From Candidatus Thorarchaeota archaeon (GTDB taxonomy: Archaea; Asgardarchaeota; Thorarchaeia; Thorarchaeales; Thorarchaeaceae): a DNA stretch of 61,586 nucleotides. The position numbers and the translations under genes were made by a program. Numbering within the stretch: position 1 is the first letter of the stretch; each line of letters begins with the position of its first letter. Under the pieces are notes generated by a model. It was given only the letters and a program-made list of their open reading frames with translations, was not told where the DNA came from and did not search any database. The stretch is from positions 1 to 61,586 of the forward strand of contig JAGSHN010000024.1 of NCBI GenBank assembly GCA_029855935.1, given 5' to 3'. Shown here piece after piece: positions 18,576-61,586 of the stretch.

Positions 18576-19379
18576 CTACGGCAGAAGCAAGTAGAAGAGT
18601 AGAACAAGCGTGTTGTTCAGGCCGTGAGCGACCGACGGAGCAACAACAGAGTAGCGTCTTCTCCGCGCTGCAAAGCCAAGAAAAGCACCCAGTACAAAAC
18701 GGGTGGGAAGCCCGATGATGTCGAGGTGAGTCGCAGCGAAGATGAGCGAGGCGATTGCAATTGCCATTGCTCCATATCTGGTCCGGTGTCCAAAGAAGTA
18801 CATCTCGAGTCTGCGCTGAAGGAATCCACGGAACAGCACCTCCTCTGCAGGCCCAACGATGACAAACATAACGAGGGCCCATCCCGCGACATCCCATATA
18901 CTCAGCGTCCGGCTCAGACTGCCTGATCCTGGTTCCGGTACGCCGGGTATCATATCGACCGCCCAACTCACGGCCACGTTAGCGAGAAACATAACAAGCC
19001 CAAGACCGAGGCCGTAGAGAATGTCAGACGGCAGACTGATCTTCTTTATGCCAATTGACGCTGCCGGAAGGCCCCGTTTCTTCACGTACCAGAGTGGTGG
19101 TACTATCAGCGCCAGTTCCGAAGCGCTCAGTAGAATCAGTACGCTGAACGGCTCCACCTGGCCTGTGCGAAGGTTCACGTGGACAACTCCCATCGCGATC
19201 AACGGGACCAACATGAGGGCAGAGATCAGTACCATCAGTCCGAGTCCCAGCAGGACGTATCCAACCACGCGTAGCACCTGGCCCCGTGAGACGTGGCGCT
19301 CAAGCAGTTTTCCCGGCACAAATATGTCAATGGTCACCGTCTGCGTCATTGCATAGCGGTCTGGGTCTTCCATCACCAT
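18576..19379 (-). CDS. CPBP-family intramembrane metalloprotease
   Basis: This 267-residue membrane protein has the CPBP/Abi motifs: EExxxR in VGPAEEVLFRGFLQRR, a histidine in FAATHLD and HGLNN near the C-terminus. These residues coordinate metal in Rce1-type proteases. About seven TMs are visible. Such proteins process prenylated or peptide substrates in the membrane; the substrate is unknown here. It diverges from the subtilase gene. Confidence 0.9.
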   Translation of the reverse strand: MVMEDPDRYAMTQTVTIDIFVPGKLLERHVSRGQVLRVVGYVLLGLGLMVLISALMLVPLIAMGVVHVNLRTGQVEPFSVLILLSASELALIVPPLWYVKKRGLPAASIGIKKISLPSDILYGLGLGLVMFLANVAVSWAVDMIPGVPEPGSGSLSRTLSIWDVAGWALVMFVIVGPAEEVLFRGFLQRRLEMYFFGHRTRYGAMAIAIASLIFAATHLDIIGLPTRFVLGAFLGFAARRRRYSVVAPSVAHGLNNTLVLLFYLLLP

Positions 19380-19511
19380 TTTCTTGGCCTCGCTGTTGTC
19401 CCACCAGTCGCCTCTGTGCAGAGATAAGCATTTGTGTATCAGCCGCCTGCGCCGTCCGCATACTCTTTATGACAAGGCTCCATCGCCTGATTGGGCCTAC
19501 GGTGAGCGACA

Positions 19512-44284: not shown

Positions 44285-45586
44285 CTACGTCTCGACAGTG
44301 ACACGTGGGGGTCTGTCCTTCCCTTGAGGCTCAAGAGTGATCACGGTGTCGGCGGCACTCTTGAGTTCCTCCATATGGGTCACCACAATGACCTGCCTGA
44401 TGCTCTGCAGCCCGCTGATTGCCTCTGGAAGCCATCTCCGGCGCTGCGAGTCAAGGCCCATTCCGGGCTCGTCCATTATCAGCAGCCCAAGTGGTCTCAG
44501 AATGCCTCTCTCTCCATCTGCGGCGATCCTCTGGAGTGCGCTGTTGACCGCCACACGCAGTGAGAAGTTCACGCATACGTCCTCTCCCCCCGAGGCATTG
44601 CTCAGCGAGACCGGGTTGCCCCTGATGTCGTATAGTCTGACATCGTATTCGTCAGTCAGCTCCAAGTCGCTGTACCTGTCACCGAAGATCTCCAGAAAGA
44701 TGTTCCTCGCCTCGGTCTGGATGAGCGGCTTTATCTGTTGTTCCGCGACCTCTGGTATCTGACCGAGTATCCTGCGAAGGTCGGTGGCTATGGCCTCCTG
44801 TTGATCTGCCTCCCTCTCTCGCTGCTTCAGTTCGGGTGATGAGATCTCGTTATTCAGTTCCGTGACCGTGCCGTAGAGCCTGTCAAGGACCGATCTGATT
44901 GGTTCCAGCTTGTCGGACGCGACACTTGCTGCAACTGATTCCACGGCCTCTCTTGCAGCTGCTATCTCATCAGTTGTCGGCAGGCGGGAGAGCATGTCGC
45001 CCAATCTCTCCCTATGCTCGCCAATCTCTCTCTTTGTCTCCTCTATTTCCTTGATCAGTTTCTTGACTCCTCGTGTGAGGTCCTCGTACTGGCCCAGGCC
45101 CATCATATTCCTCAGAGTCTGCCTCTTCTTGCTCGGAGCTAGACGTGAGAGTAGATCTATGTCGCCCTGCCTCACATAAGTCAGTGCCGCGAAGGTATCC
45201 CTGTCCATCCCCAGTAGTTCGACAATCTCATTGTCCACATCCCGCACCCTCACGAGAGTCGCGCTCTCTTTCCCCTGCTCGTGGAGTTCTGCCGTCGTCT
45301 TGTTTGGAAAGATGTCCCTTCTCACGGTGTAGACGCGGCCGTTGACCGGGGACTCGAACATGAGCTCTACACTTGCTCTCCTACGGCCATGTCTGATGAG
45401 CTCCCGGACCGACCTCACGTCCTTCTCCTTTCGTTTTACCCGCTTGAACAGAGCGAACTCAATGGCCTCAAGGATCGTCGTCTTGCCTGAGCCGTTGGGG
45501 CCAACAATCGTGGTGACTCCGTTGCCCAAGGGAATCTCTTGGTCGCCATAGACTCTGAAGTCTGACATTCTCAGTCTCCTCAGCAT
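44285..45586 (-). CDS. rad50: Rad50-like ATPase, very short and without zinc hook
   Basis: SMC-type ATPase partner of Mre11. Walker A GPNGSGKT is at 29-36, the Q-loop is YVRQGDID (Q140), the ABC signature region SNASGGED at 329-336, Walker B LLIMDEP (E373) and the H-loop VVTHMEE (H404). It has only 433 residues, about half the usual archaeal length. The coiled-coil part is limited to roughly 165-275 and contains no CxxC zinc hook. The reading frame shows no break. It starts seven bases after the Mre11 stop, so both are made together. A hookless Rad50 could not tether ends in the usual way. Confidence 0.9.
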   Translation of the reverse strand: MLRRLRMSDFRVYGDQEIPLGNGVTTIVGPNGSGKTTILEAIEFALFKRVKRKEKDVRSVRELIRHGRRRASVELMFESPVNGRVYTVRRDIFPNKTTAELHEQGKESATLVRVRDVDNEIVELLGMDRDTFAALTYVRQGDIDLLSRLAPSKKRQTLRNMMGLGQYEDLTRGVKKLIKEIEETKREIGEHRERLGDMLSRLPTTDEIAAAREAVESVAASVASDKLEPIRSVLDRLYGTVTELNNEISSPELKQREREADQQEAIATDLRRILGQIPEVAEQQIKPLIQTEARNIFLEIFGDRYSDLELTDEYDVRLYDIRGNPVSLSNASGGEDVCVNFSLRVAVNSALQRIAADGERGILRPLGLLIMDEPGMGLDSQRRRWLPEAISGLQSIRQVIVVTHMEELKSAADTVITLEPQGKDRPPRVTVET

Positions 45587-45593
45587 CGTAGAA

Positions 45594-46667
45594 TCACCTC
45601 ATTATCTGCTGTAGTAGTTCTAGGATGTCCTCCACGTTGCTGAGACCCTCGAAGACTGCATATTCCTTGACCGACATGACAGGGTCAAGAGGGTCGGTCA
45701 GCATGACTGGCCGCGGACCGTGAACTCTCCATTTGGGCTCGATGTGAATCATGAGGGGTCTCAGTCTCTTCTCGGCGCGACTGATTAGTTCCTGCCTGTC
45801 AATGGCTGCCTGAGTATCGGTGTTGATGTCGCCAGTGACCTCGACTATCACTATCGCATTCCTGCCCACATCTCCTATCCTCTCAATCTTCTCTGTGAGA
45901 AACTCGTTGACCTCTTTGGGGCCCATTCCTGTAATGTTCAGGCCCGAGATCAGCCTCACCGTCCTGACATCTCTGAGCTCCTCTGTCGTGAACTCCGCCC
46001 CCGATGAGTCCACATCCGCCACGATGAGTCTCCTTGTCCTGTTTCTACCGAGTTCCTTCCGCCAGTCGACGATGCAGGTCGAGCCCGGTGTGCCAACGCA
46101 TAGTTCCTCGTCGAGCCTGAAGTTGTGGTGATGCCCCTCTCCGATGTAGTCAAAGCCTGGCAGCTCGCTCCACTTGGTGGAGGTCGTGTGGGCAAAGAGG
46201 AGGCTGATACCATCCGTGGTTGGCCGCAGGGAAGCGATCTTTGCAAGTGTCGCCCTCTTCGAGCCCCACGACAGGAGATGAATCTCTACTCGCTGTGCAT
46301 CGTAGCCTCGTTTCACGCGACGATAGTTGCTGTCCCCGGTTGAGGTGACAAGACCTGTGGTTTCCAGCACCGTGATGGGTGACGCCGACCTGTGTCGACC
46401 TGCCAAGTCATGGTTTCCCTGAAGCACGAACACATCTATGTCGTGGTCTTGAGCGCGCCTGAAGACCTTCGTTGCCGCAGTGATCTCCTCTGTCGTGGCA
46501 TCAGGACTATCGAAGAGGTCCCCCGTGTGGACTAGGATGTCGGGACTGTGTTTCATGGCCATCTCAACAGCCCTCTTCAAACAGACCCTCGCGTCTTCTC
46601 TTCTCTCCACGAGCTGGAACATCGCCGCTCCAAGATGGGAGTCTGAGATATGCGCTATCCTTACCAT
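45594..46667 (-). CDS. mre11: Mre11-like DNA double-strand-break nuclease
   Basis: A 357-residue calcineurin-type phosphoesterase with all Mre11 motifs in order: HISDSHLG (I), HTGDLFDS (II), LQGNHDLAG (III), LLFAHTT and GEGHHHNFR (IV-V). The C-terminal 120 residues contain the capping domain and a Rad50-binding tail (SNVEDILELLQQIMR). Together with the Rad50-like ATPase it should process DNA ends. The typical archaeal partners HerA and NurA are not adjacent. It diverges from a membrane protein gene. Confidence 0.94.
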   Translation of the reverse strand: MVRIAHISDSHLGAAMFQLVERREDARVCLKRAVEMAMKHSPDILVHTGDLFDSPDATTEEITAATKVFRRAQDHDIDVFVLQGNHDLAGRHRSASPITVLETTGLVTSTGDSNYRRVKRGYDAQRVEIHLLSWGSKRATLAKIASLRPTTDGISLLFAHTTSTKWSELPGFDYIGEGHHHNFRLDEELCVGTPGSTCIVDWRKELGRNRTRRLIVADVDSSGAEFTTEELRDVRTVRLISGLNITGMGPKEVNEFLTEKIERIGDVGRNAIVIVEVTGDINTDTQAAIDRQELISRAEKRLRPLMIHIEPKWRVHGPRPVMLTDPLDPVMSVKEYAVFEGLSNVEDILELLQQIMR

Positions 46668-47576: not shown

Positions 47577-49124
47577 TCACGCATTGAGAATCTCCTCGAG
47601 CTCTCCCGTCTTGCACATCGCTGGCGGCTTTCCCTGTTGGCCTCTCTCCCTGATTATGCTCTCATAGGTGTCCCAGTCCATCTCGCGGAGTTCGGTCGGA
47701 CCAATCGCACCTGTCTCCCTGACCACACGGAACTCCTCGTTTATGCTCTTCATTGCCTCCTCGAAGGTGCTGATGAACTCCTCTCTATCAAGATTAGAGC
47801 TGTCGTAGAAGCAGGCGTAGATGACGTAGTGTCCGATTCCGTCCTCGACGACGGTGGAGACGACGTAGCCCACCAGGGAAGTATCAGTCTTGGCCAGCGC
47901 TGCGGTCAGCGCACTCTCTATGTGGGCCTTGGAGACCTTCTCGCCAGACAGGTTGAGAACATGACCACGCCTGTCTACCGAGCGAATCGTCAGCGGGTCA
48001 GTACGAGCAACTGTCACTAGGTCGCCAATGCGGTATCTGTAGTATCCCTCTGCATTGGTGATCACCATCTCGTACCTCTTACCCGGCTTGAGGTCCGTTA
48101 TCGGTACGGTTTCCGGTTCGACCTCGTCGACCGACTCCACGGGGATGAACTCAAGGTAGTTGAGGTGAGGATACAGCTGCATGCCCTGTATGTCGCCGTA
48201 GAGCTGGCCTGCAAAGATGCCCTCTGAGGCGCCATAGACCTCGCGGATGTCAACCTGTGGAAACATCGCCTTTATCCATGGCCTGTAGGGCTCGGTGTTG
48301 ATGCCGGATGCAAGAAAGAACCTCACGTTCGGCCAGAGCCTACCGACGTCTATCCTGCCCTCGCTGTCCATCACGCTCCGCAGCCTGTCCTCGTACTTTG
48401 TCCCGGAGAATCTCTTCAAGAGCCACGGACCGAGGTCGTTCCGGACCCGACGTATCAGCATCATTGACAGTGAGGTGATTCCCTGAAAACCAGTCACGTT
48501 CTCCCTGACGAGGTACTCGGCATACGCGCGTACCTTGGCCTCCATATCCTGTATGTTGAATATGTCCTCTCCCGGTTTTATCAATCGCCTGAAGATGACA
48601 TTGGCCGTCTTGGCGTAGACTCCTGTCGCATATCCTACGCTGACGCCGTTTATCTCGTCTAGCTTTGAACTTGCACCAAAGGTTATCAGCGAGCCATCAA
48701 GAATCTTCGCATGCTCCGGGTCCTCTGCTATGTAGGACATCCAGACCATTGCGCTACCCGTGGACACATCTTTCAGGCCACGTTTGGTCACTGGCATTCT
48801 CTTCGGTCTGCCCGTACTGCCCGCGGTCTGCAGATAGTAGATTACCGGGTCCGCAGTCAGAACCCGTCCGCGGGGCTGCTGGTAGACCATCTCCAGATAC
48901 GGCTTCAACCTGACCGCATCAGTCAGGGGGACCTTCTGGGAATAGTCCTCGGGGCCCGTGATGCTGTCAAAGCCAAAGCGCCGTCCGTATATGGTGTCCC
49001 TGTTTCGGCGGAGAATCTCCATCAGCTTCTCTTGGGTCACCTCCCACGGGTGATCAAGGATGTACTCGTATTCTCGCATCTTCCTTGATGCCACCAGTGG
49101 GACTATGCGTCGCAACAATCCCAT
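47577..49124 (-). CDS. GH3-family acyl-adenylating enzyme
   Basis: A 515-residue protein of the GH3 (auxin-responsive promoter) family, part of the ANL adenylating superfamily. Motifs seen: YLQTAGSTGRPKRMPVT (ATP loop), VYGASEG and YYRYRIGDLV, then the C-terminal lid HVLNLSGEKVSKAHIE. Plant members join amino acids to plant-hormone carboxylates; prokaryotic members are poorly known. The substrate is unknown. The ribosome-binding site GGAGGT lies eight bases before the ATG. Confidence 0.9.
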   Translation of the reverse strand: MGLLRRIVPLVASRKMREYEYILDHPWEVTQEKLMEILRRNRDTIYGRRFGFDSITGPEDYSQKVPLTDAVRLKPYLEMVYQQPRGRVLTADPVIYYLQTAGSTGRPKRMPVTKRGLKDVSTGSAMVWMSYIAEDPEHAKILDGSLITFGASSKLDEINGVSVGYATGVYAKTANVIFRRLIKPGEDIFNIQDMEAKVRAYAEYLVRENVTGFQGITSLSMMLIRRVRNDLGPWLLKRFSGTKYEDRLRSVMDSEGRIDVGRLWPNVRFFLASGINTEPYRPWIKAMFPQVDIREVYGASEGIFAGQLYGDIQGMQLYPHLNYLEFIPVESVDEVEPETVPITDLKPGKRYEMVITNAEGYYRYRIGDLVTVARTDPLTIRSVDRRGHVLNLSGEKVSKAHIESALTAALAKTDTSLVGYVVSTVVEDGIGHYVIYACFYDSSNLDREEFISTFEEAMKSINEEFRVVRETGAIGPTELREMDWDTYESIIRERGQQGKPPAMCKTGELEEILNA

Positions 49125-49717: not shown

Positions 49718-50494
49718 ATGATGGTGAGCAATGTGATCAGGAATCTGACGGAGCAGTTCTCAGAGGCGTGTGACTCCCAGCCCACCATTGCCGGGATGCT
49801 CGACGTGACGAACTACATGCAGGTGTCATTCAATAGTGAGGACTGGACAATCATCCGAGCAAGATTGGGGCGTCCGAGTGAGGGGAAGCGTGCGCCAATT
49901 CTTGTCCTGGTGATAGGCTTCCGCAGCGAGATGCTCCGTCCCTTTGGACAAGTCCGACTACGCTCTGGAGACTATCTCCCCTGCGACATCCCGGGACTAG
50001 TGCCGGGTCTGGCCGCGGTTGTCGATGGACGCCACAGAGGCTTGGTGGCGAATGCGCTGGTCCGGGGGGATGTCACACGAATGGTGCTGGTCTTCGAGGG
50101 CAAGGTGTCGCAGAGCTCACGCAAGGCACTTCGCTCGCTGGCAACGTCTGTGTATAGATTCTTCACCACGTGGAGAGAGTGGCGTCAGGTGCTGCTGGCC
50201 ACAGTGGAGCGAGATCCTGTTGTCAGTGAGTGGCCACTTGACTGGAGAGAGTTCCTTGCGGGTGAGAGCGGCTTTGTTGTTATGCCCTGGTTCAGGCCAA
50301 TGAGTTACTCAGAGCGCGCGACGGCAATGGACCGTGTTGTTCTTGCGGCGCGGGCTCTGCTTGCCTCTGTCCTCTCACAAGAAGGACTGGAGGACCCTCT
50401 CGTAGTCTCACTGCAGCGGTGGCTCGACGATCTGACGCCACTGCCTCAGGTGCTGTACGAGAGTCGCATTCTGGGGGAGGCTGAGGTTCAATGA
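49718..50494 (+). CDS. Operon protein A, unknown
   Basis: A 258-residue soluble protein. Recognisable only as a mixed alpha/beta protein with hydrophobic strands (RAPILVLVIGFRSEML; VTRMVLVFEGKVSQ), a Trp-rich middle (FFTTWREWRQVLLATV) and a helical C-terminal part. No signal peptide or membrane helix. It is the first gene of a coupled series; its stop overlaps the next start as ATGA. The start is uncertain: ATG 49718 is used because the segment before it looks non-conserved in composition, but TTG 49586 is possible. Confidence 0.65.
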   Translation: MMVSNVIRNLTEQFSEACDSQPTIAGMLDVTNYMQVSFNSEDWTIIRARLGRPSEGKRAPILVLVIGFRSEMLRPFGQVRLRSGDYLPCDIPGLVPGLAAVVDGRHRGLVANALVRGDVTRMVLVFEGKVSQSSRKALRSLATSVYRFFTTWREWRQVLLATVERDPVVSEWPLDWREFLAGESGFVVMPWFRPMSYSERATAMDRVVLAARALLASVLSQEGLEDPLVVSLQRWLDDLTPLPQVLYESRILGEAEVQ

Positions 50495-50967
50495 TGACTG
50501 GCCAGATGATGATGGAGCAGCGGCCTTACGTCGATGTTGCCAATCAATTCTCCCAGGGCTGGCTCGGTGGAGCTGCCGCGGGTCTCATCAGCATACGGGG
50601 GTCCGTTGTGAGTCCGCGCTGGATGGACTTCATCGTTCGTGTCACGTCTGCCCTGAAGCGGAGCGGGCGGGTCTTCCCCGTCTGGCCTGGCGAGACGGTA
50701 TCCCCGCCCCGTGGTCAGCCAATCTCGATGTTCGATGCACTCGCAGGGTATGTGAGCCTCACGGGTCGGGTCCGTGATGGATGTCTAGTCTTCCCTGTCC
50801 CCGCACCCAGGGTCTCTGCAGTGCTCAACATGCTGGGCACCGGAACCGCAATGGGCACGGGAGCGAGAACTCTAGTTGTCGTAGACACCGAGTGTCTCTC
50901 TCAGGTGGTGGCCCTGTTACCAGTCGCTGGCCCTGTGAGAGACGATCTTGAGGAGGCGATGTCGTGA
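50491..50967 (+). CDS. Operon protein B, unknown
   Basis: A 158-residue protein without recognisable motif. A central basic segment (RVTSALKRSGRVFPVWPGE) and a hydrophobic strand (RTLVVVDTECLSQVVALLPV) are visible. It overlaps the gene before (ATGA) and after (GTGA). Its position immediately upstream of the RadA paralogue suggests it is a partner of that ATPase, by analogy with other coupled pairs; this is inference. Confidence 0.68.
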   Translation: MMTGQMMMEQRPYVDVANQFSQGWLGGAAAGLISIRGSVVSPRWMDFIVRVTSALKRSGRVFPVWPGETVSPPRGQPISMFDALAGYVSLTGRVRDGCLVFPVPAPRVSAVLNMLGTGTAMGTGARTLVVVDTECLSQVVALLPVAGPVRDDLEEAMS

Positions 50968-52031
50968 AGCCACTGGAGGAGGTCCGTGGCATAGGCCCCA
51001 CAATTGCTCGGAAGCTGAAGAACGCCTTCATAACAACGGCGGAGCTACTTGCCGTGCAGAACCCCGCAGAGCTACATCAGAAGACAGGTATTGCTGAGGG
51101 CACGGCAAAGAAGATCATCGCGAACGCCAGAGAGGCTCTCGGGCTTCAGGACTTCGTGCCTGGCCTGCAGGTCGAGAAGGAGATGATGGAGCAGCCCAAG
51201 CTGACAACTGGTGTACCAGCAATTGACCAGGCACTGATGGGCGGCATAGAGTCGGGTTCGATTGTCGAGTTCTACGGTCCCGCAAAGGCTGGCAAGACGC
51301 TGTGGTGCTCTCAGTTGGCGGTGAGAGTGCAACTGCCCTTCGAACAGGGTGGTCTTGAGGGGCGTGTACTGTGGCTAGACACAGAGAACGCCTTCAAGCC
51401 TTGGCAGATACGCGCTATGGCAAAGAGGTTCGGTCTGGATCCTGAGGCCGCGCTGGGGAACATCCGGAGGGCGAAGGTGATTCTCTCAGCGCAGATAATT
51501 GACATCTTTGAGTCGATCCCGCAGAGGTGCGCGGAGGAGGATGTCCGGCTTGTAGTCATCGACTCGCTTGTCGGCCTATTTCGTGCCGAGTATGTTGGCC
51601 TTGATCTGCTGCGGCTGAGGCAACAGGACCTCAATCGTCTACTGAACCTGATGCGAAGGACCTCTGCGGCAACGGGCGCGGTGTTTGTGTACACCAATCA
51701 GGTGATGGCCTCCATCGGCACATGGGGATCGAGCGGGATTGCTCCCGCGGGCGGACACATTCTCTCGCACGGCTCCGACTATCGCTTCAGGCTGACGGCG
51801 CGCAAGGATGACTTGCGTTCAATCACGCTTGTTGACAATGCTGGTGTGCCCGAGTTCTCCATTGTGCTTCGCGTCGGGTGGGGCGGCTTCTATCCAGACC
51901 CGAAGGAGAAGAAGAGCGCTGAGCCTGAGATACTCGAGTACCTGTCAGAGGCAGGATACAGATGGCGTAGTGTTGACGACAAGACCGAGCCTGCCAGGGC
52001 CAAGATTGAGTCAAAGGAGGTCCGGACATGA
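50964..52031 (+). CDS. RadA-family recombinase paralogue with N-terminal HhH domain
   Basis: A 355-residue RecA-superfamily ATPase. Residues 1-62 are a helix-hairpin-helix domain (VRGIGPTIARKLKNAF; TGIAEGTAKKIIANAREAL). Walker A is GPAKAGKT (105-112), the catalytic Glu is in LDTENAF (E141), Walker B is LVVIDSL (D200) and TNQV begins the L2 region. L2 is altered (MASIGTWGSSGIAPAGGHI) compared with the usual RadA loop. Full-length RadA architecture but a divergent core suggests a specialised paralogue rather than the housekeeping recombinase. GTG start overlaps the previous stop. Confidence 0.88.
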   Translation: MKPLEEVRGIGPTIARKLKNAFITTAELLAVQNPAELHQKTGIAEGTAKKIIANAREALGLQDFVPGLQVEKEMMEQPKLTTGVPAIDQALMGGIESGSIVEFYGPAKAGKTLWCSQLAVRVQLPFEQGGLEGRVLWLDTENAFKPWQIRAMAKRFGLDPEAALGNIRRAKVILSAQIIDIFESIPQRCAEEDVRLVVIDSLVGLFRAEYVGLDLLRLRQQDLNRLLNLMRRTSAATGAVFVYTNQVMASIGTWGSSGIAPAGGHILSHGSDYRFRLTARKDDLRSITLVDNAGVPEFSIVLRVGWGGFYPDPKEKKSAEPEILEYLSEAGYRWRSVDDKTEPARAKIESKEVRT

Positions 52032-52486
52032 GCGGGCACGCTGGTCGCAACGAGCGCGGGATGTTCAGGGTCTATAGGTGCAGGTCATGTCGCCACGTTG
52101 GGTATGATAGAGTTGAGTCTGAGGAGGATACCACCCACTGCCCGCTGTGCGGTGCTGCTGTGGAGGACGACCCCTCGGTGGTCTACGTCGCGACACTGAG
52201 CGAGGCGGAGGATTTGATGCGCCAAATGGTCCTGACATCTAGATCGGTACATACCGCGAGGGCTGCCTTTCCGCGCAACCTCGGTGTCAAGAGGCGAGTT
52301 GAGAACATCATCCGCGACCTGATTGCTCTCAATCGAGGCCGTCCGGTCAGTCTCTCTGTCGTGCTTCAGGAGTGTTCGTATGCGGGTATTGCCCCTGAAC
52401 GGGCGGTGCGTTTTATGGCCGCACTTGAGGCTGAGGGCCGGATTCGTAATGATGGGCTGGTTGTAGAAGTAACGGAGGAGTGGTAG
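52028..52486 (+). CDS. Zinc-ribbon plus winged-helix protein (DUF5817-like)
   Basis: A 152-residue protein. An N-terminal zinc ribbon (C18-x2-C21 ... C38-x2-C41) is followed by a linker with TLSEAEDLMRQMVLTSRS, recalling archaeal DUF5817 proteins. A C-terminal winged helix (about 85-150) follows, with AGIAPERAVRFMAALEAEGRI as recognition part. It probably binds DNA, either as an operon regulator or as a DNA-loading factor for the neighbouring ATPase. Its ATG overlaps the RadA-paralogue stop (ATGA). Confidence 0.78.
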   Translation: MSGHAGRNERGMFRVYRCRSCRHVGYDRVESEEDTTHCPLCGAAVEDDPSVVYVATLSEAEDLMRQMVLTSRSVHTARAAFPRNLGVKRRVENIIRDLIALNRGRPVSLSVVLQECSYAGIAPERAVRFMAALEAEGRIRNDGLVVEVTEEW

Positions 52487-52490
52487 TCAG

Positions 52491-53120
52491 ATGGTAGTGA
52501 GTGACAGCGCGGCTCCAGACACGCTGGCGGAACGCGGGCGCCACCGGAGGACCATTGCGGGAAAATCGTTGCTGAACCTCACGAATCTCCTGTTGCGACA
52601 GACCGACCATCGTGTCGTCACGCTGCAGCGAGATACAGAACCAGATCCCGAGATCTACGTTGTGACCCGGGTCGAGTGGAGGGACCCCAGTGTTCATCGC
52701 CCGGTCTTGCCCCAGCTACCGCGACTTCTGTCGGTGCTTGAGGCGCTCAGAGGTACTCAGGGAGTCCCCACTGAGATATACCTTGACAGCACGGAAGGCC
52801 TCACGGTCTATCTGAGGACTGGCGTTAGGCTCTCGGAGCTACCAGCCAGTTCGAGAGATGCTGTCGCGCTACTGACTGGGGTGGTACACCGCACAGTGTC
52901 TCATCTGTATTCCACGGTGCGTGATGTAGAGGAGTACTTCTGGATGGCGGCTCGGAGGCACGGTTTCAGTCCCGAGATTGTGGAGAAGATGGCGCTGGGA
53001 GTGAGGCACTTCGACTCTCCGGCGCTCCGACTGCGGTTCTCTGAGCTGATGCATTCCTACTTCTCAATCCGTTTCCGAATACATCGCGCAGAGGGCTGCC
53101 TCAGAGTCGAGGGAGGCTGA
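52491..53120 (+). CDS. Operon protein E, unknown
   Basis: A 209-residue mostly helical protein. The middle has a beta-like segment (PTEIYLDSTEGLTVYLRTGV) followed by a long helical part (VHRTVSHLYSTVRDVEEYFW). No known motif. It sits four bases after the zinc-ribbon gene and seven bases before the XPD-like helicase, so it is very probably a partner in the same assembly. There is no similarity by eye to Bax1, the usual archaeal XPD partner. Confidence 0.68.
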   Translation: MVVSDSAAPDTLAERGRHRRTIAGKSLLNLTNLLLRQTDHRVVTLQRDTEPDPEIYVVTRVEWRDPSVHRPVLPQLPRLLSVLEALRGTQGVPTEIYLDSTEGLTVYLRTGVRLSELPASSRDAVALLTGVVHRTVSHLYSTVRDVEEYFWMAARRHGFSPEIVEKMALGVRHFDSPALRLRFSELMHSYFSIRFRIHRAEGCLRVEGG

Positions 53121-53127
53121 TCACACC

Positions 53128-55083
53128 GTGGCTGCGACGACGAGCGATCCGATGCGGTACTTTCCCTACGTGCCGAGGCCGCATCAGGACAGGGCCGTTC
53201 GTCTTGCGGCCAACGTGTTCTCACGTGGAGGCGTCGGCCTGTTGTCGGCAGACTGTGGTGTGGGCAAGACCATTGCAGTGTTGGCCGGTTACCTAGCAGC
53301 GAGAGCTGAACAGCCCGGGTCACGCCTGTTCATACTCACCAGAACACACTCTCAGACAAGTGTCTTCGAGTCGGAGATTGCCGTTCTTCGATCCTCCTAC
53401 GGTCACATCACCGCGACGTCCCTTGTGTCGAGAGCGCATATGTGCCCCATGCGGGAAATGATGGGAGAGACCTCCCTAGCTGGCTTTCTTCGGACATGCG
53501 CCCTATACATACGTTCCGGTAGGTGTTCGTACTTCTGGGACCTCTACAGAAGAGGTCCTGAGGGCCGTGTGCTCAGAGACGATGCGCGGGAACTGGTCGA
53601 CGAACTCCTCTCGGGCGGTGTAGTCACGCGTGCTGTAGTTGAGGCTGCCTCCGAGGACAATGCAGTCTGTCCCTATGAGCTTCTCCGCTGCGCTGCTCGC
53701 GAGAGCAGGATTGTCATCGGCCCCTACCCTTACCTCTTCAAGTCCACAGTCCGGCGCGCAACTCTGGCCTCATTGGGTATCACGCTGGACGACCTTGACA
53801 TAATAGTCGACGAGGCGCACAACCTCCCTGAACACGTTCTTGAGGCCGAGACCGCACGTCTCTCCGCTCACGATCTGCTGTGGCTGAGAGAGAACCTGGA
53901 TGATGTCTGCAAGATGACGGGCATCTCGTGGACGGGAGATGTCGTGGACTTCTTCTGGGAGTCGATGATGACGGCATTGGACCGGGTCGCGGACAGTTCG
54001 GAGATACGTCTTGAGAAGTGGGATGTGGCTCCTAGATTTGTGCAGCCTCGTGATCTTGACGCCCTGGCAGAATCGGCACGGCCAGACATCACCGACCCGG
54101 ACGGCGCGGTCAATGCCGAGACGCCGCTTGACCGGCTCATCGAGTTCCTCTATGCTGCACTCCACACGGTGCAGAGTGAGGACTGGCTTGTGACTCTCAA
54201 CATAGCTCCACATGGCGATGACACTCCGAAGTTTATGAGCGCCAGTCTGACTGTGCGGCCATTCAACGCGGCTGCCTTGGCTGGTCCTGTTCTCAGGGGT
54301 GCTCGAGCTGCGCTGTTAATGTCCGGCACCCTGAGACCTGTCAGGCACTACTCCACACTCCTCGGAATCCCTGACGCAGTGGCCGAGGAGCTGGCAAGTC
54401 CCTATCCTCAGGGGACGAGGATGGTCTTGGTCGACACGGTCCTCTCGACCAAATACCGCGAGCGGTCTGACGACCTCTGGAGACTCGTAGCGGAACGGAT
54501 TGGCGCAGTCCTCTCAACGGTCCCAGCGGAGAAGAGCGCGCTGATTGCCTTTCCCAGCTATGCAGTCATGCGCGAGGTGTTGGTGTATGCGCCCGACACA
54601 GGTTTTCGTACGCCTCTTGTTGAGTCACCTCGATCTCAGCTCGCTGAACTCGCTGACGCCATCGCAACGGGGCCTCACGCAATCTTCTGCGTCTATGGCG
54701 GAAAGTTCTCGGAGGGTGTGGACCTTGTCGAGAGCGGGTCGAGCATGATTGATGTCATTGTTGGTGTTGGTATACCTTTCTCTCCGCCGTCTTCGTATCA
54801 GCTCGCGCTCCAGAGGTGGCTGGATGAGAGGTTTGGGAGGGGCATGGGGTACTACTATGCCACGACTATTCCCTCGTTACGGAAGGTGACGCAGCTGATA
54901 GGACGGCTGCGCCGTTCCCCGTCGGACTGGGGGATTGTCGTGCTCATTGACAGACGATTCCTTCGTCATCTCTCGCTATTGGGCGAGGATGTGTATGCGG
55001 ATCTGTGGCCGTACTCCACGGTCGAGGAGTTGACTTACGCAATCGCCGAGTATCTTCGTCTGAAGGGGGCTGGTGCAATTTGA
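53128..55083 (+). CDS. XPD/Rad3-like Fe-S DNA helicase
   Basis: A 651-residue SF2 helicase. Motif I is ADCGVGKT (41-48), motif Ia LTRTHSQ, the DEAH box is IIVDEAHNLPEH (228-231) and motif VI QLIGRLRRSPSDWG. Between I and II lie the cysteines C106, C124, C133 and C181 (with C188 nearby), in the position of the XPD 4Fe-4S cluster. XPD enzymes unwind DNA 5' to 3' in nucleotide excision repair. Here it is embedded in the coupled operon, so it may serve a dedicated pathway. The start is GTG. Confidence 0.92.
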   Translation: MAATTSDPMRYFPYVPRPHQDRAVRLAANVFSRGGVGLLSADCGVGKTIAVLAGYLAARAEQPGSRLFILTRTHSQTSVFESEIAVLRSSYGHITATSLVSRAHMCPMREMMGETSLAGFLRTCALYIRSGRCSYFWDLYRRGPEGRVLRDDARELVDELLSGGVVTRAVVEAASEDNAVCPYELLRCAARESRIVIGPYPYLFKSTVRRATLASLGITLDDLDIIVDEAHNLPEHVLEAETARLSAHDLLWLRENLDDVCKMTGISWTGDVVDFFWESMMTALDRVADSSEIRLEKWDVAPRFVQPRDLDALAESARPDITDPDGAVNAETPLDRLIEFLYAALHTVQSEDWLVTLNIAPHGDDTPKFMSASLTVRPFNAAALAGPVLRGARAALLMSGTLRPVRHYSTLLGIPDAVAEELASPYPQGTRMVLVDTVLSTKYRERSDDLWRLVAERIGAVLSTVPAEKSALIAFPSYAVMREVLVYAPDTGFRTPLVESPRSQLAELADAIATGPHAIFCVYGGKFSEGVDLVESGSSMIDVIVGVGIPFSPPSSYQLALQRWLDERFGRGMGYYYATTIPSLRKVTQLIGRLRRSPSDWGIVVLIDRRFLRHLSLLGEDVYADLWPYSTVEELTYAIAEYLRLKGAGAI

Positions 55084-55673
55084 GATGGCGCGACAGCAGC
55101 TATACTGTCTACTATCTTCTTGGCGCGATTGTCACTGGTACGCTAGTCCGGCTCATACTGCTGGATCAGAGCATCGTCTCTGCAGCAATGGTCGCTGTCG
55201 CGGCGGTCCTCTCCACGGCAGTCGCATTGCTCATCCGGAGCGACTATTCTCCGGTCGTACTGTGGAATCCGCGTCTGAAGACGATGGCTGTGATTCGGCG
55301 CTGGTCGGTTGAGGTGAGCGCTGGTTGTCTCTTCTCCAGCGTCCCAATGGGGATTGACCTGAGCCGCAGCGCAAAGTTTCTCCTCAGAACACTTCACGGC
55401 CTCTTCGGGCGCGGCGAAAACTCGTCACTGCGATTCTTTGTAGTCCGTCCCCTCGGTGACGAGCCCACCCGCGTCGGGTTGATGCTGACTCGTCGTATGC
55501 TGTGTCTTGGCAACGTGACTTCAAAGGTCGCCAGTCTGGCAGAGACGGTCAGCAGGGAGCTCACTAGTCTGGAGAGCGCCGTCCGGTCGGTCTATCCTCA
55601 TACTCCTGTTGACATTGCGGATCGCGACGACCTCATACACGTCTATTCTGGAGGTGCGCCCAGTGCTGCCTGA
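55080..55673 (+). CDS. Two-TM membrane protein upstream of HerA-like protein
   Basis: A 197-residue protein. Two membrane helices lie near the N-terminus (YYLLGAIVTGTLVRLILL; AAMVAVAAVLSTAVALLI), then about 140 soluble residues. The TTG start at 55080 overlaps the helicase stop as TTGA, with a GGGGG run upstream; the frame runs further left inside the helicase gene. The layout (two-TM protein just before a VirB4/HerA-like gene) recalls PrgI-VirB4 pairs of conjugation systems, but sequence similarity is not visible. Confidence 0.7.
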   Translation: MRWRDSSYTVYYLLGAIVTGTLVRLILLDQSIVSAAMVAVAAVLSTAVALLIRSDYSPVVLWNPRLKTMAVIRRWSVEVSAGCLFSSVPMGIDLSRSAKFLLRTLHGLFGRGENSSLRFFVVRPLGDEPTRVGLMLTRRMLCLGNVTSKVASLAETVSRELTSLESAVRSVYPHTPVDIADRDDLIHVYSGGAPSAA

Positions 55674-55950
55674 GTGTCTGTCGTCTGCTCGCAGAATAGC
55701 CCTGCCCTCGGGGCTACGCACAGAGTCTGTGATGAGTCTGCTCAGGCGCTCTCTGTCGTATCACTGGCTGATTGTCCTTCGGACGCCGCAGCTGGTGGCA
55801 TACGGCCTGCCGCCACACGATGCTGTCTCGGCACTTGCGATTATCGGCAGGGATCTCTTCGTCATTCAAGACGATGGTGGCAGCACGATGTCCGCGTTGG
55901 CACGTCTGCTGGCCGCACTATCTGCATCGCAGGAGGTGAGTCAACGATGA
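55663..55950 (+). CDS. Small operon protein H, unknown
   Basis: A 95-residue protein without TM or known motif; it reads MLPECLSSARRIALPSGL at the start and has a helical C-terminus (MSALARLLAALSAS). GTG at 55663 is chosen because GGAGGT is seven bases upstream and the start overlaps the end of the previous gene by 11 bases. Its stop overlaps the next ATG (ATGA). Confidence 0.62.
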   Translation: MLPECLSSARRIALPSGLRTESVMSLLRRSLSYHWLIVLRTPQLVAYGLPPHDAVSALAIIGRDLFVIQDDGGSTMSALARLLAALSASQEVSQR

Positions 55951-58310
55951 CCAAGACCGTGATGGGCGCGAGTCCGGAGGTGGAGCCGGTTGAGCGGATG
56001 CTGAGGCGGTCAGAGGAGGCACCATCACGCGAGTATATACAGTGGGAGAACCGGAACAGACCTACAGGTCTGAGGGGCGTGCAGGCGCTCATCGGGCTCG
56101 CCCTTGTTGCCAGTGTGTTGTCACCGCCACTTGTCCTGATTGCCCTTGGAGTGTCTGCAGCCACCGTGGCTCTGCTCCGCTCAGGCCGCTCAAGGGCCAG
56201 AGGGACGTGGCGTGGACTGAACGGATGGAGGCGAATTCGACACCGGACGTCTCGATTGCGATACCATAGCACTCACGTCACCCTGCGGCGAGGCAGGTAC
56301 CTTGGCGGCGCCAGTCTGTCAGACGCAGCCCCCCATCTGTCTGGAAGACTGAGTGGACTGCTGCGGGCACTGTCGTCGCGCCACGGGTTTGCTCTTCTGG
56401 TCGAGCTGTCACCAGAGAGTGCAATCGGCCTGGATCCATCTGCACTGACCGAGTGGCAGGCTGAACATCTGCCCGGGTCTGAACGACAGCTGGAGTCACT
56501 GTTCTGGCGTCACGGATGTCTCTGGAGTGCGAGGGCCGTGATCTTGGCCCATGGACGGACCGAGCAATACGTGTCCACCACCCTAGACATTGCACTTGGC
56601 GCCCTAGGTGATGCAAATTGGGCGCGTCTTGACGGTCGTTCCCTGATGAGGAGGTATTGCAGACTGGACCTGCTCCCCGAATCGTCATTCTATGCCACAG
56701 GCGAAGAGCTCTCAGGATGGCTTGTACAATTGGCCAGCGAGCTATCCTCTGATCTTGGCAGCAACGTACCCGGGGAGTTTCTGACGCCAGCAAAGGTCGA
56801 GAAGTGTGATTACGTCCTTGGCAGAATCATCGACCCGGAGACTCTGCGACTTGGACCTGAGACCGGGCTGACCGACAAGGACCTTCAGGGTGGAGTATGG
56901 ATCGCTGGTGGGACGGATGTTGTGCGGAGAGAGGTGCTTGCGAGAGTCGTCTGCAGGCTGCTGGAGAGGGGCCAGAGAGTGGTGTACATCGCTACAGACT
57001 CGGCCGCAGGTGCCATCGCTTCCCTCGCCAGAGAGGCTGCGGTCTTGCAGCTCGGGCACAACCTGATATTGAACCCCGTCGACCCGGATGGCCTCCCTGC
57101 GAACAGATATGCTGTGCTCCTCCTGCGGGCGCTTGAGGGACTTCTTGAGCGTGACCGCCCGCGGGGCGACCTTGAAGGGGCTGTCGAGCTTGAGATGGCT
57201 CTTGCGCGAGCGATCTCGAGAAAGGATGCGACCCTCGCCGATGTATCTATTGACACTGCCGCTCTCAGCCCGACCGACTCCAGCTCTGGGGCTGGACCGC
57301 CCCGCCAGTCGAGCCCGTCGATGTATCGTTCGATGCTTGGTCTCACACTCGTAGAGGAGCTGTACAAAGGCAGTGCTGCGTCCGCATTCTACGGTAGCCA
57401 GACGCTCAGCGCCGAGGAGATGGCCTCAGGTGATCTCACAGTCATCACCCTACCTCTACCAACACGCGAGCTCCAGCGATTCGCTCTGGATCTTCTGCTT
57501 CTCAAGCTCAGTGGTGTTCCGCGTGACGACGCTCTTGTAGTTGTCGTGGAGAACGCCCACAACTTTGCTGGCAGGGAGTCTTGGTCACTTGCCCTCGTTG
57601 ACAGGCTGTTCCGTCGAGGACCGCTCATCCTCGGAACGGAAGCATTGTCCAAGATGCCAGACGTACTCCGCGGTCGTTTCTGCTCAGCCGGTGTTCTCCA
57701 GATGAGCGATTCATCGGACATCAGGGCAGCCGCGGACCTCCTCGGTCTGGGTGTCATAGCGACAGGTCTGCATAGCAAGAGTCGAAGTTCTCTGCGAGAG
57801 ACCTCGTTTCTGCGGACGATGGGACAAGACACCGTTCTCCTCAGGTCCGGTTCGCGTAGGCTGGCTGTGGCCGTCCGATTGTCGCCGGCTCCAGAACTGG
57901 AGAGTCGCCCGCTCTCTGATGTTCAGTCCACTGCGCGTCAGACCGAGTCAGTACGGCGAGATGATCGTGTCAGAGGAGATCGCTCTCTCACGTTGATCGA
58001 GGAGGTCGCCGGGCGTCAGGCCTCCCTTGCTGCCAGGATACTGCGGCTGCTGGAGAGATACGAGCCTCTCACGGTACGTGCGCTGGAGCAGTTTCTTGCG
58101 GCCAGTGAGGACAGCTCACCAGCCAGCTCCGCATCCGCCCCCGACGGTGAGGTGGACAGCGTGATAACACGTCTTGAACGCGCGAGTCTTGTGTTGCGTG
58201 GACACGAGGTCCACGGCAATGTCTCGTACACCAACTATCGCCTGACGATGAAGGGGCGGCTGGCTCTCAGACAGACGGAACAGGAGGAGAGGGAGGGACT
58301 AGCGGAGTGA
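55947..58310 (+). CDS. Membrane-anchored HerA/VirB4-like protein with eroded Walker motifs
   Basis: A 787-residue protein. A TM hairpin (about 44-78) precedes a VirB4-like N-terminal region (about 105-280). An FtsK/HerA-like domain follows: GVWIAGGTDVVRREVLARVV (from 316) stands where Walker A should be, then LERGQRVVYIATD, LILNPVDPDG, VVVVENAHNF (531-540) at Walker B, and GPLILGTEALSKMPDVLRG matching the HerA ATQRPS sensor region. The GK(S/T) of Walker A and the DE of Walker B are both missing, so it probably cannot hydrolyse ATP. The C-terminus (about 680-787) is a winged helix. Confidence 0.8.
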   Translation: MTKTVMGASPEVEPVERMLRRSEEAPSREYIQWENRNRPTGLRGVQALIGLALVASVLSPPLVLIALGVSAATVALLRSGRSRARGTWRGLNGWRRIRHRTSRLRYHSTHVTLRRGRYLGGASLSDAAPHLSGRLSGLLRALSSRHGFALLVELSPESAIGLDPSALTEWQAEHLPGSERQLESLFWRHGCLWSARAVILAHGRTEQYVSTTLDIALGALGDANWARLDGRSLMRRYCRLDLLPESSFYATGEELSGWLVQLASELSSDLGSNVPGEFLTPAKVEKCDYVLGRIIDPETLRLGPETGLTDKDLQGGVWIAGGTDVVRREVLARVVCRLLERGQRVVYIATDSAAGAIASLAREAAVLQLGHNLILNPVDPDGLPANRYAVLLLRALEGLLERDRPRGDLEGAVELEMALARAISRKDATLADVSIDTAALSPTDSSSGAGPPRQSSPSMYRSMLGLTLVEELYKGSAASAFYGSQTLSAEEMASGDLTVITLPLPTRELQRFALDLLLLKLSGVPRDDALVVVVENAHNFAGRESWSLALVDRLFRRGPLILGTEALSKMPDVLRGRFCSAGVLQMSDSSDIRAAADLLGLGVIATGLHSKSRSSLRETSFLRTMGQDTVLLRSGSRRLAVAVRLSPAPELESRPLSDVQSTARQTESVRRDDRVRGDRSLTLIEEVAGRQASLAARILRLLERYEPLTVRALEQFLAASEDSSPASSASAPDGEVDSVITRLERASLVLRGHEVHGNVSYTNYRLTMKGRLALRQTEQEEREGLAE

Positions 58311-60532
58311 CAGTGGCCGCGATCAAATCAGAGGTCCTCGACCTTCTCTCATCGGCTTCGTTGGAGCCGCGGGGAGTCCAGAGAGAGGCGATTGAGAGAG
58401 GCCTACTAGAGGGTGCCAGCCTAATGGTCTGCAGTCCGACAGGCTCGGGGAAGACTCTTGTTGGCGAGATGGCGGCTCTACGTGCCGTACTGTCTGGGGA
58501 GCGCGCCCTCTATCTCGTGCCCCTTCGTGCCCTCGCGGCCCAAGTCAGTTCGGTGATGAGGGAGCGCTACCAGGCCCGCGGAGTCCGAGTGGGCGTCACA
58601 ACGGGCGACTTTCAGACGGACGCTGAGTATCTTGCGGATGCCGAGATTATTGTGACAACCTTCGAGCGCGCGGACTCTCTGATGCGCCGTCGGGCACCTT
58701 GGCTCGACGAGGTCGGCACGGTGGTCGTTGATGAGGTCCAGACGATTGGAGAGCGCGGTAGGGGTGCCCGCCTTGAGTCGGTCCTGATGCGTCTGAGGAG
58801 ACTGCTGCCAGAGGTCCAGATCGTTGCACTGTCGGCGACAATAGGCGCTCCTGAGGAACTGGCTGAATGGCTTGGTTGCGACCTGATAGTTTCTGAGCAG
58901 CGTCCGGTGCCACTGCACTACTCAATCGTTCCCACTCGTGACAAGGTGCAGACGTTGAGAAACATCGTCCTTGCGACGGTACGCGCGGACGGCCAGTCAA
59001 TAGTCTTCGCAAGGACGCGGCGTGATGCAGAGAGCTTGGCCTCGCATCTTGCCCCTGAGATCGGACGGCATATGACATCAGCGGAACAGCGTGAGGTGAG
59101 CTCGGAGCTCGACTCTGTTGAGAACTGGTATGTCTCGCCGCCAAGGGCTCTTCGCGGTCTGTTGCATCACGGTGTCGCCTTTCATCACGCGGGCCTGTCC
59201 TATTCTGTCAGAGATCTGATTGAGCGGCTCTTCCGACGCGGGCTGCTTCGCGTTGTCTTCGCGACGTCGACGCTCTCCGCCGGAGTTGACTTTCCGGCAC
59301 GGACGGTCATTGTGACCGATGTCCGTTCACCTTCAGATCACCGGACTCTGATATCCGCGAACCAGCTTCATCAGATGCTCGGCCGAGCAGGCCGCCCCGG
59401 TCACGATACCATGGGGATGGGCATCGTACTAGTGGGAAGCAAGGGCGAGGCTGAGACGGTGCGTGACAGGTACTTCGACGTCATGGAGGACGCTGAGACT
59501 GGCGAAACAGTTCTGTTTCCACGGTACGACCGCGTGAACAGCGTCTTGAGCGACCCGGAGGCTCTGACCGAACAGGTTCTCGTCGCTCTGGCCACACTGG
59601 GAGAGTCTAGTCCCCAGAAACTGGTTGACGAGTATTTCAGCGACTCCTTTCTCTCATTCTGCAGCGTCCGGGACTCGAGAGCGCCAGCGAGGGTGCTGCC
59701 GATAGATGCCGTGGACGCGCGCGTGGCAATGGAGTGCAGGGCCTTCTCGGACACCGTGAGAGCCGCCAGCGAAGGGGTTCTAGGACATGCGACAATCCGC
59801 GAGAAGACGGAGACGACCATTGGCGGAATCGTTCGGGACTGGGACGGCAACCAGCACACATGCCGCTTCTCGTCTAGGACCGACGCTACTGGTCTGGTGG
59901 AGGGTCCGATGTGTTCCTGTGGCCAGCCCGTGGACAGACACGGGATACTCTGCCCCCATCTTGTCTGTCTTGGTATCACAGCCGCAACAGAGCTAGGCTC
60001 GTTGGCCGACTATGTGGTCCCACTTTCTCTTGATGTGACCAGTCCCGTGCAGGTGCTGGTGCGGCTGGGGCTGATTGAGGGTGCAGAGGGGAATGCGCTC
60101 AGAGCAACGCGTCTCGGTCGACTTGTGTGCCGGTTGTATCTCAGAATCTCGACCACGCGAGAGATGCTCGCTCTGCTGCCCCTGGTTGACAATGGTCAGG
60201 ACGTGGTAAGTCTTCTACGACACTTGGTCTCGCTGGAGATGGGGGCGAGACTACCCGACTCGTTCGAGTCGTTCATCGCGGGCCTGGCCTCGACAGGTAT
60301 TCCCCTCTCGAAGCTTGCTGCAGATGCGGAGATTGATGAGGGTGATGCCCTCGGTCTGGTGGACGCGTCGCGCTGGCTGCTCTCGGCCATGGCTGCAGTT
60401 GCGGACCACGGGGGCCTCGATACAGCTCGCGAGATCATCCAGTCGCTTCTGGTCGCGCTGGATGGTCGTAGTGAGGCATTTGGCAAGACAGTTGACGGAG
60501 AGTGTGAAACAGATGGCAATACTGAGCCGTGA
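58307..60532 (+). CDS. Ski2-like (Hel308-type) helicase with SWIM zinc finger
   Basis: A 741-residue SF2 helicase. Motif I is SPTGSGKT (43-50), the DExH position reads DEVQ (about 142-145), SAT is present and motif VI is QMLGRAGRPGHD. After the RecA cores comes a SWIM zinc finger, C536-x-C538-x10-C549-x-H551, which is not found in Hel308. The C-terminal 180 residues are helical and lack an obvious Sec63 or ratchet signature. It should be a 3' to 5' DNA translocase. The GTG start overlaps the previous stop (GTGA). Confidence 0.9.
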   Translation: MTVAAIKSEVLDLLSSASLEPRGVQREAIERGLLEGASLMVCSPTGSGKTLVGEMAALRAVLSGERALYLVPLRALAAQVSSVMRERYQARGVRVGVTTGDFQTDAEYLADAEIIVTTFERADSLMRRRAPWLDEVGTVVVDEVQTIGERGRGARLESVLMRLRRLLPEVQIVALSATIGAPEELAEWLGCDLIVSEQRPVPLHYSIVPTRDKVQTLRNIVLATVRADGQSIVFARTRRDAESLASHLAPEIGRHMTSAEQREVSSELDSVENWYVSPPRALRGLLHHGVAFHHAGLSYSVRDLIERLFRRGLLRVVFATSTLSAGVDFPARTVIVTDVRSPSDHRTLISANQLHQMLGRAGRPGHDTMGMGIVLVGSKGEAETVRDRYFDVMEDAETGETVLFPRYDRVNSVLSDPEALTEQVLVALATLGESSPQKLVDEYFSDSFLSFCSVRDSRAPARVLPIDAVDARVAMECRAFSDTVRAASEGVLGHATIREKTETTIGGIVRDWDGNQHTCRFSSRTDATGLVEGPMCSCGQPVDRHGILCPHLVCLGITAATELGSLADYVVPLSLDVTSPVQVLVRLGLIEGAEGNALRATRLGRLVCRLYLRISTTREMLALLPLVDNGQDVVSLLRHLVSLEMGARLPDSFESFIAGLASTGIPLSKLAADAEIDEGDALGLVDASRWLLSAMAAVADHGGLDTAREIIQSLLVALDGRSEAFGKTVDGECETDGNTEP

Positions 60533-61586
60533 CGATGATGATGTTGGAGAGATGATGCCCCTTGCGGGTAGCGAGAAGAGCCACGATGTGGCCCGTGTTC
60601 TCCTCGACAGTGGGCACAGAGTGGCACAGCTGCCCAATGGCGTGACATTGGGTGTGCGGCTTGAGGGAATTCCGTACTCCTGCGGCGTTCACGTTGATGT
60701 GGTCTTCGTGGTCGACCTTCGTCGAGCGCGATTCGGAAGAGGCCCATTCGCTATGAAGACTGCTCTATGGCCGATTGTCACGCAGCGCCTTGACAGCCTC
60801 CTAGAACACGTCGCCCTCTCGGATGTGCTCAAGACGCGAACGATTCTCACTCAGCGCGGGAGGATCTCGTTTGACGTCCTGGAGCATCCAGACGGTCGCA
60901 GTACGTCCTTCATCCACGAAACCCGCACAATATACGTCGTCACAGGTGACCTGCGACCGACAGTTGACCTGTCCTGGCTGACGAGGCCGAGTCGTGTGGT
61001 CACGGCAGAGGAGTTTCCTCTCGTCCGTGCGAGCGACATTCGCGCCTCACGACCAGTCCTTGAAGAGGTGGTTGACGCCGAGAAGTGGGAGGACCTTGAG
61101 TCCCTAATACGATCGACTTGGATCTCGATCTTTCTCACCGGGCTGGCTGCTCTGCTATTCCTGAGCTACGCCGTGGGCCTTGGTTCGACGTCACTCCTCG
61201 TACACGGACCACTAATCATCGCGGCTGCGGGCCTAGCTGTCGTGGTGGTGTGGCTGCAGCTCAGAGCTGGTCGGCTGTTCAGGGCCTTTGTCGAGACCAC
61301 AGAGCGTGAGATCAGAGCGCTCCAGAGGTCTGATGACGTTGGGATTGTCGAACGCCACTTCAGCGAGGCCGGCGATGCACTACGTATCCTGGAGAGCCTG
61401 CAGATCAGAGTACCTCCGCTCCTTATCTCCGCAGCCGAGGCTCTCCGTTCCCATGATTGCAATGTTGCTGTGCAGCTCGCATCTGCCATCCTTGACGACT
61501 GCGTGACGCTCTCGACCTTTGGCGTTGTTTCCGATGACGAGTTTGCCACAGCTGACACGGGACTGGGCGTCTTCCTCGGGCTCTTC
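60513..61586 (+). CDS. Operon protein K, TM protein (partial, runs off the window)
   Basis: At least 358 residues, open to the last base. The N-terminal 190 residues are soluble and rich in beta strands (GVTLGVRLEGIPYSCGVHVDV; RTIYVVTGDLRPTVDL). Two membrane helices follow (about 200-250; ISIFLTGLAALLFLSYAVGL and GPLIIAAAGLAVVVVWL). A helical segment with charged repeats comes next. The family is unknown. The ATG at 60513 overlaps the helicase gene by 20 bases. Confidence 0.68.
   Translation, partial: MAILSRDDDDVGEMMPLAGSEKSHDVARVLLDSGHRVAQLPNGVTLGVRLEGIPYSCGVHVDVVFVVDLRRARFGRGPFAMKTALWPIVTQRLDSLLEHVALSDVLKTRTILTQRGRISFDVLEHPDGRSTSFIHETRTIYVVTGDLRPTVDLSWLTRPSRVVTAEEFPLVRASDIRASRPVLEEVVDAEKWEDLESLIRSTWISIFLTGLAALLFLSYAVGLGSTSLLVHGPLIIAAAGLAVVVVWLQLRAGRLFRAFVETTEREIRALQRSDDVGIVERHFSEAGDALRILESLQIRVPPLLISAAEALRSHDCNVAVQLASAILDDCVTLSTFGVVSDDEFATADTGLGVFLGLF

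Follow-up and report, generated by a model that had tools for sequence, protein, structure and literature searches.

What a set of recombination enzymes does when it is encoded in one run with membrane proteins is the question raised by a locus at the end of a Thorarchaeia contig. The window, by which we mean the whole stretch of DNA analyzed here, is an entire contig (C10; 61,586 bases) from a Thorarchaeia genome of 2.97 Mb. A preliminary description, made from the sequence alone, had proposed that a run of tightly coupled genes from position 49718 to the window end encodes a candidate DNA-processing system linked to the membrane. The analysis presented below supports the existence of such a coherent system, with corrections to its extent and components.

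Layout and extent of the operon

Gene calls and inspection of start codons and joins yielded eleven coupled plus-strand genes (g01 to g11) between position 49718 and the contig end, as first described. Most joins had been reported as ATGA, GTGA, or TTGA overlaps, and 6 of the 10 were indeed 4-nt overlaps (ATGA, GTGA, ATGA, TTGA, ATGA, and GTGA); at the remaining four, the genes were either separated, by 4 and 7 nt, or overlapped more widely, by 11 and 20 nt. The eleven-gene run was real, but it did not represent the full extent of the operon. The last 27 bases of C10 are the reverse of the end of contig C4, and the g11 reading frame runs on into C4, where its remainder is followed by g12, g13, g14, and g15 and then by a minus-strand gene. 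Since the same junction was found inside single contigs of Thorarchaeia relatives, the joining of C10 to C4 is well supported by contig comparison. Extension of the contig, one of the checks suggested beforehand, gave an operon of 15 same-strand genes, mostly with start-stop overlaps, and the window end is the end of the contig, not of the operon. The genes and the upstream flank are as follows.

47577..49124, minus: GH3-like gene, usual upstream neighbor; boundary of the operon, not a component
49718..50494, plus: g01, protein of no assigned family, 258 aa, conserved in Thorarchaeia
50491..50967, plus: g02, protein of no assigned family, 158 aa (alignment A3)
50964..52031, plus: g03, paralogue of RadA; HhH domain present, Walker A intact as GPAKAGKT (Pfam Rad51, E 2e-51)
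52028..52486, plus: g04, zinc-ribbon and winged-helix protein (CxxC..CxxC in 18/18 sequences)
52491..53120, plus: g05, alpha/beta protein of no assigned family, 209 aa, only in Thorarchaeia
53128..55083, plus: g06, XPD/Rad3-like Fe-S helicase paralogue (Helicase_C_2, DEAD_2)
55080..55673, plus: g07, membrane helices and a domain akin to the N-terminal membrane part of the VirB4-like protein (hhalign)
55663..55950, plus: g08, small protein of no assigned family, ~95 aa, start uncertain (19 Thorarchaeia sequences)
55947..58310, plus: g09, VirB4/HerA-fold protein anchored in the membrane, with a winged helix at the C terminus, without P-loop (AlphaFold, Foldseek)
58307..60532, plus: g10, Hel308-like Ski2 helicase with SWIM zinc finger (DEAD, E 1e-33)
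60513..61586, plus: g11, membrane protein with two helices flanked by cytosolic parts, interrupted by the window end and continuing to extended position 62036 on C4
C4 (locus L033) 18848-19519, minus strand of L033: g12, RecA-fold ATPase with intact P-loop
L033 17945-18799, minus strand of L033: g13, membrane protein
L033 17218-17955, minus strand of L033: g14, RadB-like protein without P-loop
L033 16237-17214, minus strand of L033: g15, intact FEN1-like nuclease

Family assignments originally made from the sequence were corroborated for the RadA paralogue (g03), the zinc-ribbon/winged-helix protein (g04), the XPD-like Fe-S helicase (g06), the eroded HerA/VirB4-like protein (g09), and the Ski2-like helicase with SWIM finger (g10), and the two further proteins with membrane helices proved to be g07 and g11. 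In the small proteins, g01 homologues shared 24-57% identity with invariant Trp residues (alignment A2); g01 gave only a sub-threshold match to Pfam DUF632 and one chance-level match (E 1.7) in a PDB sequence search, and g02 had no Pfam match. The g05 protein (43-60% identity) was found in 28 of 228 Asgard genomes, every one of them from Thorarchaeia, and its confident model (pLDDT 83) had no significant PDB relative by sequence or fold search.

Conservation in Thorarchaeia and other Asgard archaea

Profile searches recovered this gene set, with its order unchanged, from 20 Thorarchaeia loci, including the present one and several truncated by contig or locus ends, so the operon is more than a chance arrangement. 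Some deviations were seen: g02 was undetected in G015 (L050); in G022 (L038), a single-contig genome, g01 to g03 were not detected next to the operon; and reading frames split in two were observed for g06 in G014 and for g10 in G009. Searches of 47 Thorarchaeia genomes detected the operon in 29. The 18 genomes without it, compared to about 6 expected from incompleteness alone, indicate that it is probably absent from some Thorarchaeia lineages; among others, it was missing from the single-contig genome G024, which is rated only 77% complete. With this patchy presence, the system looks dispensable.

Such a distribution would also suit a defense system acting at the cell surface to recognize and destroy DNA as it enters, and helicases, nucleases, and HerA-fold proteins do occur in defense systems. 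When ten of the proteins were compared to PADLOC models, only helicase models were matched and no specific multicomponent system: g10 matched defense helicases and g06 a type IV CRISPR-associated DinG model. These are, however, broad helicase models, the other eight proteins tested matched no defense model, and a single 15-gene order kept across the whole family is atypical for defense islands. We therefore consider a defensive function improbable.

The surroundings of the operon are conserved as well. Downstream of g15, a minus-strand gene (~560-685 aa), a membrane protein gene (~200 aa), and a giant surface-protein gene form a trio present in nearly all Thorarchaeia genomes examined. Here, the giant surface protein, which is conserved in Thorarchaeia, comprises 2671 aa (L033:5537-13552), with a prenyltransferase-like toroid and many Ig-like repeats. 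On the other side, 3-5 kb upstream of the operon (44285-46667), a divergent pair codes for an Mre11-like phosphoesterase and a 433-aa Rad50-like protein too short for a long coiled coil. The pair is conserved upstream in four Thorarchaeia genomes, and no close second copy of either gene was found in this genome.

Conserved flanks bear on whether the operon could be a remnant or domesticated integrated conjugative element that moves as a unit. Its VirB4-like protein and patchy presence are in keeping with such an origin, and genes for VirB4 and HerA occur in integrated mobile elements of other archaea (PMC9259645). Yet the flanks are conserved downstream and often upstream, no tRNA gene was found in the window, g09 had no relative in IMG/VR contigs or plasmid records, and RadA and the SWIM helicase form deep Asgard-wide clades (see below) that do not suggest recent transfer. 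Among the explanations weighed here, this one appears the least probable. A viral or plasmid origin was likewise rejected: g09 lacked relatives there, and the plasmid matches of g10 were partial and to generic helicases.

Searching with a g09 profile revealed relatives in many other Asgard genomes, in neighborhoods containing homologues of several of g03, g04, g10, g12, and g15 within ~15-40 kb. These islands are located in the following families and loci.

f2: L158, L216, L217
f4: L108
f6: L101, L161
f9: L099, L159
f11: L102, L103, L109, L112, L162, L166
f12: L104
f25: L106, L160

Core islands are thus present in at least seven Asgard families besides Thorarchaeia, i.e., at least eight in all. 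The core consists of the RadA paralogue, the zinc-ribbon/winged-helix protein (g04 homologues being present in other Asgard islands), the Hel308-like SWIM helicase, the RecA-like ATPase, the FEN1-like nuclease, and the membrane-anchored VirB4/HerA-fold protein. No g10 homologue was recognized in the f4 island and no g15 homologue in those of f6 and f12, the f12 contig being short and showing only g09 and g10. In most islands outside Thorarchaeia, g09 is represented by two genes, one coding for the membrane part and the other for the ATPase-fold part; f2 has a single long gene instead. Neighbors scattered in all related genomes, the outcome that would have spoken against the preliminary proposal, were not what we found, because gene order is conserved across Thorarchaeia and the core recurs in other Asgard families.

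The membrane and surface components were less uniform. Near the core, surface-protein homologues with toroid and/or Ig-like domains are encoded in Thorarchaeia, f6, f9, and f11; the last two families also have an M28-peptidase-like membrane protein nearby. A giant surface protein was often, though not invariably, seen near the core. Profile comparison did not support the identity of Thorarchaeia g11 with c6, of g13 with other polytopic proteins, or of F4 with c5. Since the polytopic membrane proteins of Thorarchaeia and of the other islands share no detectable homology, the membrane part may differ between lineages. Both this and the islands next to which no surface protein was seen count against a role in DNA uptake or exchange.

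Several variant loci were observed in addition. In an f2 island, a Hef/FANCM-like helicase gene with a weak ERCC4 match (L217:11709-13793) directly precedes the zinc-ribbon gene. In f16 (L107:183-8971) and f5 (L111:3-8163), a fused P-loop-less VirB4-like protein is found in a different conserved membrane-protein neighborhood (clusters c21-c24) without recombination enzymes. Genome G058 (f16) has a RadA-like gene beside an XPD-family helicase gene and several membrane protein genes (L163:4178-8977), which is possibly another layout of a similar system.

Dedicated enzyme paralogues and a VirB4-like protein without P-loop

Housekeeping RadA, FEN1, Hel308-like, and XPD genes are located elsewhere in the same genome, and catalytic motifs are intact in g03, g06, g10, g12, and g15. 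In trees (IQ-TREE, LG+G4) with few taxa and some long branches, island RadA proteins (f1, f4, f9, f11) formed one clade apart from all housekeeping RadA (UFBoot 100), and island FEN1 proteins (f1, f4, f9, f11, f25) fell on one side of a split (UFBoot 100). The g03 protein, 39% identical to the housekeeping RadA on C16, has the features of RadA (Rad51-type core, HhH, and Walker A); it passed model NF003301 (270 versus 259) and failed TIGR02236 (249 versus 361). A second RadA clade of Asgard archaea has been reported (Matsuo et al. 2025, PMC12722695), in a text from which the words "Thorarchae" and "operon" are absent. Like that study, the present work deals with Asgard RadA paralogues; in our tree, island RadA branches separately from the one or more canonical-like copies encoded by the same genomes. 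The island supplies a genomic context for an extra Asgard RadA lineage.

The g15 protein shows the XPG fold and catalytic acids of FEN1 (PDB FEN-1 1a76, E 4e-38; acidic residues invariant) and scored below the fen_arch equivalog cut-off (112 versus 352). In g10, the SWIM finger (CxC-x10-CxH) was conserved in 16/16 sequences, and its score against the NCBIfam Hel308 equivalog was 302, compared to a cut-off of 1200. All 12 operon or island helicases in the tree carried the finger and none of the canonical Hel308 group, from which they separated; the long-branch sequence G000_C21b, with a SWIM-like motif, had no firm placement. G041 encodes a second full-length SWIM-bearing Hel308-like helicase (G041_C12, L218:10187-12526) on another contig, outside its island, which fell within the SWIM group.

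The g06 helicase is distinct from the housekeeping XPD on C14 and retains GxGKT, DEAH, and four cysteines (positions 106, 124, 133, and 181) in 18/18 sequences. It was rejected as a core component: its closest relatives outside Thorarchaeia (G051, G058) lie outside islands, and the helicase encoded near the G131 island falls among canonical XPD proteins. The XPD-like g06 is a later addition to the Thorarchaeia operon, not part of the Asgard core.

The AlphaFold model of g09 had a confident core, most blocks between residues 281 and 600 reaching a mean pLDDT of 70-94 (63 for the whole model). Foldseek matched it to VirB4/TrwK of R388 (5e-14) and to HerA (1.5e-12), with a TM-score of 0.68 by target length for the VirB4 C-terminal domain; by sequence search alone, the similarity to HerA was only weak (E 0.05). 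At the P-loop position, the typical sequence is GG[TS]xxxR, and no GKT or GKS was present in any of the 20 Asgard homologues compared. ATP binding thus appears to have been lost, and since the P-loop is missing in every Asgard homologue examined, g09 is probably a scaffold, not a pump; judged from its sequence, its most likely role is that of a scaffold or of a hub for DNA binding. That many Asgard families have kept the VirB4 fold while lacking its P-loop predicts that the fold serves a structural purpose. The g07 protein matched c1N, the N-terminal membrane part of the VirB4-like protein, with an hhalign probability of 93%.

The domain order of g09 (membrane helices, RecA/HerA-type domain, and C-terminal winged helix) resembles FtsK and brings up the main rival explanation, i.e., a membrane-tethered complex serving the cell's own chromosome, with the recombination enzymes acting at the membrane to resolve or repair chromosomes. 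Every enzyme of the set acts on recombination intermediates, and the Mre11-like and short Rad50-like genes 3-5 kb upstream in four genomes would fit as well. Without a P-loop, however, g09 could not pump in the manner of FtsK, it is not obvious what giant surface proteins would do in segregation, and the 18 Thorarchaeia genomes without the operon argue against an essential function. We regard repair or segregation as rather unlikely, though clearly less so than defense or a conjugative origin.

Proposed function and comparison with known systems

We infer that the island proteins act together at the envelope on DNA. The reading that best fits the surface proteins together with the enzyme set, put forward tentatively and somewhat short of an even chance, is that the operon encodes a dedicated membrane-anchored machine, conserved across Asgard archaea, that couples DNA uptake or exchange to recombination. 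Surface and membrane proteins would form an envelope site where DNA from outside or from a partner cell enters or is held, with the P-loop-less VirB4-like g09 as assembly scaffold. ATP-driven helicases (Hel308-SWIM and, in Thorarchaeia, also the XPD-like protein) would pull or unwind a strand, the FEN1-like nuclease would trim 5' flaps, and the RadA-like recombinase, aided by RecA-like partners, would load on single strands and direct chromosomal integration. Since g09 has no P-loop, the helicases and not VirB4 would have to supply the power for transport, which is the weakest step of this reading. No VirB6/CedA-like channel, pilin, or ComEC was recognized among the island proteins scanned with Pfam, and this speaks against DNA import. 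The more specific idea of an ancestral Asgard machine for intercellular DNA exchange, i.e., a complex anchored in the envelope that has a RadA-family recombinase, a Hel308-SWIM helicase, and a FEN1-like nuclease of its own and is organized by a VirB4-derived pseudo-ATPase, is doubtful. If true, the lineage closest to eukaryotes would possess a dedicated DNA-exchange-and-recombination apparatus. The accessible literature does not establish by what means DNA is exchanged and recombined in Asgard archaea, a question relevant to how eukaryotic recombination and sex arose; a defined gene set across at least eight families makes the question testable.

Among known systems, DNA import by Ced (Sulfolobales) and Ted (Thermoproteales) shares with the islands a VirB4/HerA-fold membrane protein, VirB4-like N-terminal parts split over several proteins and, for Ted, co-located recombination genes (PMC9905601, PMC11868833): Ted loci combine a VirB4-like gene with herA and rad50 (PMC9905601), and CedB and CedD are homologous to different parts of the VirB4 N-terminal domain (PMC11868833). 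In contrast, the island VirB4-like protein lacks the P-loop in 20/20 homologues and so, despite its fold, does not qualify as a VirB4/CedB-like ATPase. No CedA/VirB6 or CedA1/VirB2 homologue was recognized, as none of the polytopic island proteins was identified as such by Pfam, with distant homology possible, and neither the RadA, Hel308-SWIM, FEN1, and RecA-like paralogues nor the giant surface proteins have been described for Ced/Ted. Ced itself is induced by DNA damage. The VirB4-like protein without P-loop likewise does not fit type IV secretion or conjugation, and no relaxase or VirD4 was found among the operon genes. As in the HerA-NurA-Mre11-Rad50 end-resection operon, a HerA-fold protein lies near recombination genes, but g09 is membrane anchored and has lost the P-loop of an active HerA, no NurA match was found in the operon, and the Mre11/Rad50-like pair is a divergent neighbor in only four genomes.

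Bacterial natural transformation (ComEC/ComFA/DprA/RadA) joins an envelope site, a helicase, and a recombinase. The logic is the one proposed here; the parts are unrelated, with no homologue recognized. By comparison of components, the Asgard system appears similar in logic to Ced/Ted or bacterial competence, built from different parts, and not a member of Ced/Ted. The preliminary description knew of no named system with this gene set, and we found none in the searchable literature, which covered only a minority of subscription journals and no preprints. The operon seems new as a gene system, and its mechanism may prove to be a variant of DNA import.
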